This document shows positions 2-31,495 of a stretch of 39,419 bases of DNA, in pieces. The notes below the pieces were generated by a model that saw nothing but the letters and a program-made list of their open reading frames with translations, ran no database searches and was not told the DNA's origin. How positions within the stretch are numbered: position 1 is the first letter of the stretch; every line of letters begins with the position of its first letter. Origin of the DNA: an uncultured Verrucomicrobiota bacterium (GTDB taxonomy: Bacteria > Verrucomicrobiota > Kiritimatiellia > Kiritimatiellales > Tichowtungiaceae); assembly GCA_903826865.1 (NCBI GenBank), contig CAIKGD010000088.1:1-39419 (forward strand), read 5' to 3'. The translations under genes were made by a program, and so were the position numbers.

Positions 2-709
2 GTCTCCGGTGTAGTCATTAAGCCTGACCCACCCCGGCCTTCGGCCACCCCTCCCGAGGGGGGATCAGAAAAAGAATTTCTTCCGCCTTCAGAGTCCCCT
101 CCTTTGGAGGGGTGGCCGAAGGCCGGGGTGGGTTGCGCTCTCCTCGGCAAGCACAACACGGAAAACATGCGTAATGCTCTACGGCTCTGCAAAGCGCTCG
201 GCCTCGACATGGATAAATGCAAAGCCGCCGTCGCGACCTTCAAAGGTATTGAACGACGGCTTGAACGGGTCGGCCCGAAGGTGATCGACGACTTCGCACA
301 CAGCCCGGTCAAAATCGCCGCCGCGCTCGAAGCAGTCTCGGGAGAATTTCCGGCGTTCTCCGCCTACTGGCGTCCGCACGGCTACACCCCGCTTTTCCAG
401 CTGGCCGACGGTTTGATTGACGTTTTTTGCAACCATTGGAAAGGTAGGGACGGATCGCCGAGCCGTCCGGAAGACAAACTGTTCATCCTGCCGGTCTATT
501 TCGCAGGCGGAACGGTGAACATCAAAGTCACCTCGGAGCAGTTTGTCGAACGGCTGAAAACGGCGGGTGTTCCGGCGGAGTTTGTTCCGGATTACGCCGC
601 ACTGGAAAAACGGCTTCTGGAAGAAGGACTGCCCGTTCTCGGCATGGGTGCCCGCGATCCGGAATTACCGCTCTTTGCTAAACGACTGGCGACATCGTTC
701 TGCAGGTAG
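2..709 (+). CDS. Mur ligase family protein, C-terminal part (5' end outside window)
   Basis: The reading frame is open from base 2, so the gene begins left of the window. The GKHNTENM segment, the GIERRLERVG stretch and IDDFAHSPVKI are the hallmarks of the end of the central domain and the C-terminal domain of Mur ligases of the MurC/Mpl type, which join amino acids or peptides to UDP-MurNAc in cell-wall synthesis or recycling. RPHGYTPLFQLAD and LPVYFAGGT continue the C-terminal domain. The N-terminal UDP-binding domain and the P-loop are not in view, so the exact substrate cannot be assigned. The gene is unusual: a 107-bp palindromic repeat lies in frame just before GKHN, a 27-bp hairpin adds exactly nine residues (GRDGSPSRP) after NHWK, and a third repeat supplies the TAG stop. 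Activity is uncertain because of these insertions. Confidence 0.85.
   Translation, partial: VSGVVIKPDPPRPSATPPEGGSEKEFLPPSESPPLEGWPKAGVGCALLGKHNTENMRNALRLCKALGLDMDKCKAAVATFKGIERRLERVGPKVIDDFAHSPVKIAAALEAVSGEFPAFSAYWRPHGYTPLFQLADGLIDVFCNHWKGRDGSPSRPEDKLFILPVYFAGGTVNIKVTSEQFVERLKTAGVPAEFVPDYAALEKRLLEEGLPVLGMGARDPELPLFAKRLATSFCR
27..133. repeat. 107-bp palindromic repeat, GC-rich family, copy 1 (inside Mur ligase gene)
   Basis: Bases 27-54 and 106-133 are a perfect 28-nt inverted repeat. Each arm itself contains a small hairpin (GGCC-TTC-GGCC on the left, GGCC-GAA-GGCC on the right) and is flanked internally by further C-rich/G-rich stems. The element is read through in frame as a Pro-rich insert. 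A related copy lies at 2825-2935. No transposase is seen in the element, so it would have to be mobilised in trans if mobile. Confidence 0.9.
443..469. repeat. 27-bp hairpin half-element inserted in frame in Mur ligase gene
   Basis: Stem GGACGG (448-453) and CCGTCC (463-468) enclose the nonamer ATCGCCGAG (454-462). The unit begins with GGTAGGG and is identical over 27 nt to the left part of the repeat at 705-781. It starts and ends on codon boundaries and encodes GRDGSPSRP between NHWK and EDKLFILP, where family members normally have a short linker. Confidence 0.85.
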
Positions 710-781
710 GGACGGATCGCCGAGCCGTCCGCCCTTCGACCAACTCAGGACAGGCGGCGCTCTCGGCGATAGCGCCCTACC
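705..781. repeat. 77-bp REPIN-like element (two inverted hairpins) at the Mur ligase stop codon
   Basis: The ends GGTAGGG and CCCTACC are inverted. The left hairpin is GGACGG-ATCGCCGAG-CCGTCC (710-730). The right hairpin is GGCGCT-CTCGGCGAT-AGCGCC (756-776), whose loop is the exact reverse complement of the left loop although its stem differs. The upstream gene's TAG stop (707-709) lies inside the first bases of the element. The middle holds CCTTCGACCAACTCAGGAC-like sequence. Confidence 0.85.
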
Positions 782-18653: not shown

Positions 18654-18730
18654 TGGTGCACCCGACAAGAGTCGAACTTGTAACCCTCAGATTCGTAGTC
18701 TGATGCTCTATCCAATTGAGCTACGGGTGC
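18654..18730 (-). tRNA. tRNA-Arg, anticodon ACG
   Basis: On the minus strand the acceptor arms GCACCCG (18730-18724) and CGGGTGC pair perfectly. The D arm begins TAGCTCAATTGGATAGAGC, the anticodon stem TCAGA/TCTGA encloses CTACGAA (anticodon ACG, read as ICG), and the T arm contains GTTCGACTC. The discriminator A and an encoded CCA (18656-18654) follow. It lies between metK and lolC and is transcribed in the same direction. Confidence 0.97.
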
Positions 18731-27834: not shown

Positions 27835-28856
27835 GCCGCGCTCCCGGAGGTGAAGGTGCTCATGTAGGCCAGCAGTTCTTTCTGCGTACAGCAGGCCGTA
27901 CCGAGTTTGCCGACCACCACGCCCGCCGCGAAGTTGGCCAGTTCGGCTGCTTCGAGGAAGCTGGCTCCGGCGGCCAGCGCCAGCATGTAGGCGGCGATCA
28001 CGGTGTCGCCCGCGCCGCTGACATCGAACACTTCGCGCGCGCGGGTCGGAATATGCTGCGGTGCGGCGCCCTGCTCCAGCAATAACATGCCGTGCTCGCT
28101 CAGCGTCACCAGCAGGACTTCGGCACCCCAGCGTTCCTGCAGAATGCGGCCCGCTTCGATCAGCGGTTTGTCTTCCAGCGGATTGGCCGCCGGGCGGACA
28201 TACGGAAGCCCGGCAACGGCAAAGGTTTCGCGGCGATTCGGACTGGCAAAGGTGATTCCGCCGACATGGAGCGGATGATTGTCTTTCGGATCATAACCGA
28301 CCGGAATGCCCGCTTCGTGCGCGGCGCTTACAATGCGGTCGATAACGTCCTGCTCCAGCGTGCCTTTGCCGTAATCTTCAATGATTACTGCGGTCGAGCT
28401 TTTAACCGCGTCCCGCAGTCCGGCAGCAAATTTTTCTTTATCGGCACCGGTCCATTCCGGATAGCGCTCGCGATCCACGCGCACCACCTGCTGACGCTCG
28501 GCGATCACGCGGGTTTTCACCGTCGTCTGCGCGCCGTCCAGTTCATAGACCGCGCCGCAGTCGATGCCCATACCGGCGAACACCCGTTTAAGCTCAGCGC
28601 CGTGCGTGTCCCGGCCGAGAATTCCGGCCGCCAGACACCGGCCGCCGAGCGCGGCGACATTGGCGCAGACGTTGCCCGCGCCGCCGGGCATATATTTTTC
28701 ACCGGTCACTTCCACAATCGGAATCGGTGCTTCAGGCGAAACCCGCGAGACCGTGCCGTAGATAAAACGGTCGAGAATCAGATCGCCCGCCACCAGAATC
28801 CGCTGGCCGGCTGTTTTCGCAAAGATTTCCTTAACGCGTTCCGTTGTTATCTTCAT
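27831..28856 (-). CDS. rfaE1: D-glycero-beta-D-manno-heptose-7-phosphate kinase (RfaE1/HldE N-domain type)
   Basis: A ribokinase/PfkB-family kinase. ILVAGDLILDRFIYGTVSRVSPEAPIPIVEV is the exact HldE/RfaE1 N-terminal signature, MPGGAGNVCANVAALGG follows, IIEDYGKGTLEQDVI and the C-terminal DVSGAGDTVIAAYMLALAAG contain the catalytic Asp and anion hole. The 341 residues cover the kinase domain only; the adenylyltransferase half (RfaE2) is absent and would be elsewhere. It overlaps kdsB by 4 nt and the DUF3108 gene by 26 nt. Confidence 0.94.
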   Translation of the reverse strand: MKITTERVKEIFAKTAGQRILVAGDLILDRFIYGTVSRVSPEAPIPIVEVTGEKYMPGGAGNVCANVAALGGRCLAAGILGRDTHGAELKRVFAGMGIDCGAVYELDGAQTTVKTRVIAERQQVVRVDRERYPEWTGADKEKFAAGLRDAVKSSTAVIIEDYGKGTLEQDVIDRIVSAAHEAGIPVGYDPKDNHPLHVGGITFASPNRRETFAVAGLPYVRPAANPLEDKPLIEAGRILQERWGAEVLLVTLSEHGMLLLEQGAAPQHIPTRAREVFDVSGAGDTVIAAYMLALAAGASFLEAAELANFAAGVVVGKLGTACCTQKELLAYMSTFTSGSAA

Positions 28857-31003: not shown

Positions 31004-31495
31004 CCTATTTTATACTTCTGAAAGATTCAACCGTTTCAGATACGGATACCGGATTTGATTTCCCGGCGGACGCGGATGCAGAATACCCGCGCCTTTAAAC
31101 GGTAATGAACACTTCCCCAATAAGGTCAATCATCCGGATACCGCACTGCCGTTGGTGAAGTTACCGGTTAAACTCCCGGTATCTGTCAGAGCTGCAGCCA
31201 CTGTAACATATTAGGAAATGTTGCCGCCGTTATCGTAGACGAGGTTTCCCTAACTTGCTCTAAAATAATCCGTTACATTTTAAACCTTTTTCATCATCAC
31301 AGTGTCCTGTCAAAACCGCCGCGATTTCACAGGTGGAACGTGATCGCCGAGCACGTTCTGAGGGTGCCCGGCGATCACGCTCCACCTATCGGAATACGGG
31401 GTTGGTTCTAACAGATCATCACTCGGCAGAAAAACGTTTTCCAGTGCACGAAAACTGTTGTCAACAGGACCGGCAGGCGGAGATTGTCTGGAATC
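31004..31495. other. Noncoding stretch with one repeat and possible decayed coding sequence
   Basis: This is the only gap above 300 nt. It holds the leader motif at 31017-31036, the repeat at 31331-31387, and between about 31132 and 31250 a minus-strand frame that reads like a low-complexity beta-rich passenger protein (NLVYDNGGNIS, stop, then TDTGSLTGNFTNGSAVSG, stop). I see no intact gene or RNA. The rest looks featureless. Confidence 0.5.
31331..31387. repeat. 57-bp REPIN-like element with ATCGCCGAG loop
   Basis: The outer arms are AGGTGGA (31331-31337) and TCCACCT (31381-31387). The left hairpin AACGTG-ATCGCCGAG-CACGTT spans 31337-31357. The right hairpin has the near-inverse loop CCCGGCGAT (31367-31375) between GTG and CAC. 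The architecture and loop are those of the element at 705-781, but the stems are different. Confidence 0.85.

Follow-up and report, generated by a model that had tools for sequence, protein, structure and literature searches.

Several hairpins in a stretch of DNA from an uncultured member of the Kiritimatiellae share the nine-base sequence ATCGCCGAG and differ in the stems that enclose it, which raises the question of what preserves their pairing while their sequence changes. The stretch, referred to as the window, comprises 39,419 nt of contig CAIKGD010000088.1 (GCA_903826865.1), which belongs to a draft assembly of a 2.64-Mb genome in 88 contigs. An earlier note described the hairpins as a REPIN-like family with a fixed loop, recognised by a RAYT-type transposase or an RNA-binding protein. 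It placed ATCGCCGAG correctly at 454-462, 716-724, and 31343-31351 on the forward strand and at 762-770 on the reverse strand, and the stems GGACGG/CCGTCC (twice), GGCGCT/AGCGCC, and AACGTG/CACGTT are also as it gave them; the arm at 31367-31375 indeed differs from ATCGCCGAG by one base and reads ATCGCCGGG. The window contains six copies of ATCGCCGAG compared with 0.71 expected from shuffles, and none of 100 shuffles reaches six. Four copies lie in hairpins, and the copies at 28497 and 36905 fail to score as REP hairpins. The covariance model identifies exactly five REP arms in the window (Table 1).

The REP unit has a length of 25 nt and can be divided into an unpaired GTRG foot, a stem of approximately 9 bp, and a triloop of GCC or sometimes TCC. 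A single arm folds as DNA into ....((((((.((...)).)))))), in which six pairs follow the 4-nt unpaired foot and two further pairs, separated from these by an A.G mismatch, enclose the loop GCC. According to this folding, the nine bases previously regarded as a fixed loop are mostly stem, TC pairing with GA, and the true loop has 3 nt. The nine-base loop was also abandoned on account of the other apices in the same family, since CTCGCCGAG, TTCGCCGAA, ACCGCCGGG, and CCGTCCCGG vary with compensation. The genome-wide counts are 26 for ATCGCCGAG, 11 for ACCGCCGGG, 10 each for CTCGCCGAG and TTCGCCGAA, and 7 for CCGTCCCGG, in addition to others. The loop had seemed fixed because the search was keyed to a single apex, which hid the rest. 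The key feature missing from the earlier note is the unpaired GTAG or GTGG that begins every arm in the window. The feet of 81 arms are GTAG (51), GTGG (20), GCAG (6), and others (4), and GTRG stays unpaired in the DNA folds of single arms. The base before the foot is G in 81 of 85 arms, mostly with A or G ahead of it, and identity between copies ends at the foot and this one preceding G.

Table 1. REP arms and associated features in the window.
Feature	Coordinates	Strand	Basis
Solo REP arm GTAG GGACGG ATC GCC GAG CCGTCC	444..468	+	model match, 38 bits
REP arm alpha (GTAG + GGACGG stem), half of a head-to-head REPIN	706..730	+	covariance model and fold
REPIN spacer, 25 bp	731..755	.	sequence, model matches, spacer lengths
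REP arm beta (GTAG + GGCGCT stem), inverted partner of 706..730	756..780	-	model match, 39.7 bits
TAG within the GTAG foot, stop codon of ORF 104-709	707..709	+	sequence and ORF
Mur-ligase-like protein, C-terminal part; one REP in frame, end in the next REP	104..709	+	weak Pfam Mur_ligase_C, below cut-off
GTGG-family REP arm (AACGTG/CACGTT stem)	31333..31357	+	model match, 37.6 bits
GTGG-family inverted partner (AGCGTG..CACCCT, one unpaired outer-stem position)	31361..31385	-	model match, 32.1 bits

As the earlier note had proposed, the hairpins were collected genome-wide and their stems tested for covariation. Exact matches to GTRGN6ATCGCCGAG number 26 across the 2.64 Mb of the genome, compared with none for a reversed control pattern. 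All 26 arms form six of six Watson-Crick pairs in the outer stem, with eight distinct stems, and the 3' half was not used in selecting them. The covariance model yields 85 matches in the genome, about 84 of them convincing, at 52 places on many contigs. In alignment A1, which contains 22 distinct arms, two-sided changes occur at all nine pairs. The two-sided cells number 47 compared with 12.3 in shuffles, and the covariation score is 0.71, compared with 0.24 after shuffling and at most 0.22 with slid partners. At least eight of the nine pairs are Watson-Crick in 74 of 81 arms; the percentage paired is inflated in alignment A1 because a few arms were gathered by a pairing criterion, and the 26/26 figure is cleaner because its selection was free of that criterion. 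Pairing is kept while the stem sequence changes, as had been claimed from the window.

Neighbouring arms are positioned head-to-head, with GTRG pointing outward, in 32 of 33 pairs, forming REPINs, inverted dimers with a short spacer. Each of the 32 head-to-head pairs is a heterodimer of two different stems, and 21 of them join GGAC with GGCG. The spacers are 1-26 bp long, with clusters at 2, 15-16, and 25-26 bp. The arms belong to two subfamilies, GTAGGG, composed of arm alpha (GGACGG and variants) and arm beta (GGCGCG or GGCGCT), and GTGGA[AG]CG. Nine REPINs (L136, L144, L148, L156, L165, L166, L173, L174, and L177) are located midway in a longer MITE-like repeat of approximately 150 bp, the ends of which are ATACCAGTTCCGTAT...TTTGGTAT (ATACCA...TGGTAT).

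The solo arm is inserted in frame in the ORF of the Mur-ligase-like protein, homologues of which are present in 42 of 45 genomes, and adds the peptide GRDGSPS. The congener L282 provides the empty site, with CCATTGGAAAAAACGTCCGCAAGAC there versus CCATTGGAAAGGTAGGGACGGATCGCCGAGCCGTCCGGAAGAC in the window, which corresponds to a net gain of 18 nt. The one insertion observed with an empty site is that of a solo arm. Two other congeners (L283 and L284) contain different repeat-like inserts in the same loop of the protein. The same ORF owes its stop codon to the TAG of the GTAG foot of the first REPIN, and the second REPIN has a cytidine/deoxycytidylate-deaminase-like gene on one side and a PHP-domain gene on the other.

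Relatives of the host encode RAYTs of approximately 150 residues that have REPs of the window's model within 200 bp. Such REPs are present on both sides of the gene in nine of the 14 best-scoring loci (L245, L247, L249-L254, and L256), and 54 of the 63 model matches in the RAYT loci of relatives lie within 200 bp of the RAYT. The loci L250 and L252 contain arms identical to arms of the window's genome (e.g. GTAGGGCGCGACCGCCGGGCGCGCC); L252 belongs to a congener of the window's organism, in whose genome the model finds 106 matches. Arms with the GTGG foot flank the RAYT on both sides at L247 and L254. Residues H69-L-H71, which form the HUH motif, and tyrosine Y122 are invariant in the short RAYTs. 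When compared with the NCBIfam model of REP-associated tyrosine transposases (NF047646, cut-off 80 bits), the L252 RAYT passes with 88.5 bits, and the L254 RAYT, with 75.9 bits, falls just under. In the RAYT tree, several forks of which are weakly supported, lineages with G-first loops (GCC and GAC/GAT) form one group, TCC is adjacent to it, and CGA is placed elsewhere. Judged by these sequences, the REP loop follows the RAYT lineage. Among 58 genomes, the median number of REPs is 14.5 with a strong match to this RAYT lineage versus 3 without one (one-sided Mann-Whitney p 4e-4, uncorrected for kinship).

It is unlikely that the hairpins are instead kept as RNA elements, such as terminators, mRNA stabilisers, or protein-binding hairpins, with the covariation resulting from selection on RNA. 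The stems also pair as RNA, the copy at 706 is located at a gene end and supplies its stop codon, and Di Nocera et al. (PMC3733652) suggest that REPs may act as RNA. However, an RNA role does not fit the inverted heterodimers with outward GTRG, the copies inserted in frame within coding sequence, or the REPs on both sides of RAYT genes, and a purely RNA role leaves the unpaired foot unexplained. A search against Rfam produced no match to the REPs, its sole match being a tRNA at 18657-18730.

The earlier note expected a single RAYT gene for the family, which was not borne out in the host's own assembly. A profile search of the 88-contig draft found no RAYT of the cognate lineage, intact or broken. 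The RAYT-like genes of this genome, four detected by Pfam and a fifth on contig C41, are all of other lineages. Genome G013 has 53 REPs and likewise only a RAYT of another lineage, which is embedded in PriA. The gene on C41 (L164:404-1003) has a RAYT reading frame that is open and contains, in frame, an insert originating in a different palindromic repeat, GTGGAACGCGACCCTCCAGTTGGAGGGACGGCTTCCACGCCGTCC; similar repeats adjoin the gene. In genome G005, a RAYT ORF (L248) runs in frame into the downstream gene, with repeat-derived peptides in between; that gene presumably encodes a protein resembling 5-formyl-THF cyclo-ligase. A RAYT of the window's genome (L030) is positioned directly upstream of a gene similar to the one joined to the L248 RAYT.

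The 305-residue RAYT on contig C7 (L029) could be proposed to mobilise the families of the window's genome, as a GTGG REP begins directly after its stop codon. We consider this improbable, because same-model REPs lie within 200 bp at only one (L050) of the 33 homologous loci searched, and the GTGG family flanks another RAYT lineage on both sides at L247 and L254. L029-type RAYTs were rejected as the driver, since most homologues have no flanking REPs. A de novo search for hairpins with a GTRG foot around L029-type RAYTs showed no enrichment relative to control feet. RAYTs of the long class (L027 type) were also rejected, having no same-model REP close by in the loci searched, the nearest being approximately 670 bp away at L205. 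That the similarity reflects nothing but the duplication of longer DNA, with no selection on the hairpins, agrees with the nine REPINs inside the longer repeat but is contradicted by the compensated changes at all nine stem pairs, by flanks that differ in the copies examined outside those nine, and by identity that ends at the GTRG foot and its preceding G, and we regard it as extremely improbable.

The hairpins are very probably REPs of the GTAG superfamily, mostly arranged as head-to-head heterodimeric REPINs, which are non-autonomous elements spread by an HUH RAYT/TnpA-REP. The observations behind this reading are the structure of the arms, their covariation, the dimer geometry, the in-frame insertion with its empty site, and the RAYTs of relatives flanked by same-model REPs; together with the loops that follow the RAYT lineage, they favour the transposase side of the earlier proposal. 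From these we infer recognition by a cognate RAYT, cleavage, and transposition. When a strand becomes single, for example during replication, the arm would fold, the RAYT would recognise the folded arm by its GTRG foot and small loop, cut beside the REP, and rejoin the REPIN at another place. The stem sequence would be nearly free provided that it pairs, so that foot and apex would remain fixed while the stems compensate. Cleavage by a group 3 TnpA-REP requires GTAG and the first base of the loop, and the enzyme tolerates most stem substitutions but is impaired by stem mismatches (PMC8266576). Recognition of this type would leave the pattern seen here, in which foot and loop stay constant and the stems compensate. 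The counterpoint is that the host's assembly has no cognate RAYT, yet its REP copies are many and similar. The cognate RAYT appears to have been lost or not assembled, and the copies may therefore now be immobile.

In relatives, another RAYT lineage is found in frame within PriA (L308-L311, L314, and L317), the large subunit of exonuclease VII (XseA; L237 and L241), the CCA-adding enzyme (L235), and a B12-binding radical SAM protein (L229); in a Fic protein (L236) it is located at the end. These assignments are from Pfam, except that the transposase domain in the L237 exonuclease was recognised by its sequence and not by Pfam with the threshold used. Similar REP palindromes border the cassette on both sides in most cases, and the flanks of L230 are less clear. 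PriA is single-copy in all ten genomes examined, six of which have the cassette at one shared site with the frame open. The PriA gene of the window's genome (L313, contig C12) contains a lone in-frame REP palindrome, GTGGAAGCGGCAGGGATGCCGCTTCCACC, at the site of the congeners' cassette, which is possibly the scar of a lost cassette. On contig C42 of this genome (L028:787-2820(-), L168:6790-7510), a RAYT domain with GTGG REPs (GTGGCGCAGACGCCCTCGTCTGCG) on both sides is in frame within a CCA-adding-enzyme-like gene of 677 codons, the frame of which is open; the genome has two PolyA_pol-domain genes, one with the cassette. It is reasonably likely that REPIN-RAYT-REPIN cassettes of Kiritimatiellales entered conserved housekeeping genes in frame, are translated within the host protein with the frame open through both repeats and the transposase, and can be lost, leaving an in-frame REP scar. 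If so, the transposase would persist much as an intein does, as a passenger domain that may not be spliced out. A limited literature search found no description of in-frame REPIN-RAYT cassettes.

The RAYT/REP pairs of this little-studied lineage vary independently in foot, loop, and stem, and the choice of REPs by TnpA-REP is therefore directly testable with them. The GCC, TCC, GAC/GAT, and CGA loops are each tied to a RAYT lineage, and the natural covariation indicates that stem pairing is kept and not stem sequence.

The REPs resemble the GTAG-tagged superfamily of Di Nocera et al. 2013 (PMC3733652), which has 24 consensus families and likewise shows an unpaired GTAG/GTGG end, a stem of 6-9 bp, a loop of 2-3 nt, stem variants that compensate, head-to-head dimers (some of them heterodimers), stop codons provided by GTAG, copies inside ORFs, and flanked RAYT genes. 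That paper reports GTAG REPs in Verrucomicrobia (Opitutus terrae) and notes an unexplained preference for heterodimers, on which the 32/32 rule bears; no mention of Kiritimatiellae was found in the parts consulted. REPINs (Bertels and Rainey 2011, PMC3116915) are also composed of two inverse REPs and a spacer, dispersed in one genome, and RAYT-linked; unlike them, all 32 dimers here join different stems, and the host assembly has no cognate RAYT. The group 3 TnpA-REP/REP system of Stenotrophomonas maltophilia (PMC8266576) shares the near-perfect stem of 8-9 bp, the G-first 3-nt loop, and the GTAG foot, and its REP is tolerant of stem sequence in vitro, whereas an A.G mismatch is retained beneath the apex in most of the arms described here. 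The BIMEs of E. coli (Y/Z REPs), which are associated with group 2 TnpA-REP, similarly contain heterodimeric inverted REPs with a stem mismatch, but the REPs described here have a shorter hairpin, a triloop, and a different RAYT sequence. Because close relatives carry matching transposase genes within the same repeats, the hairpins of the window represent a new REP family from a further lineage of the PVC group; the parasite-like element to which the family belongs is of an already described kind, and its structure is not of a new type.
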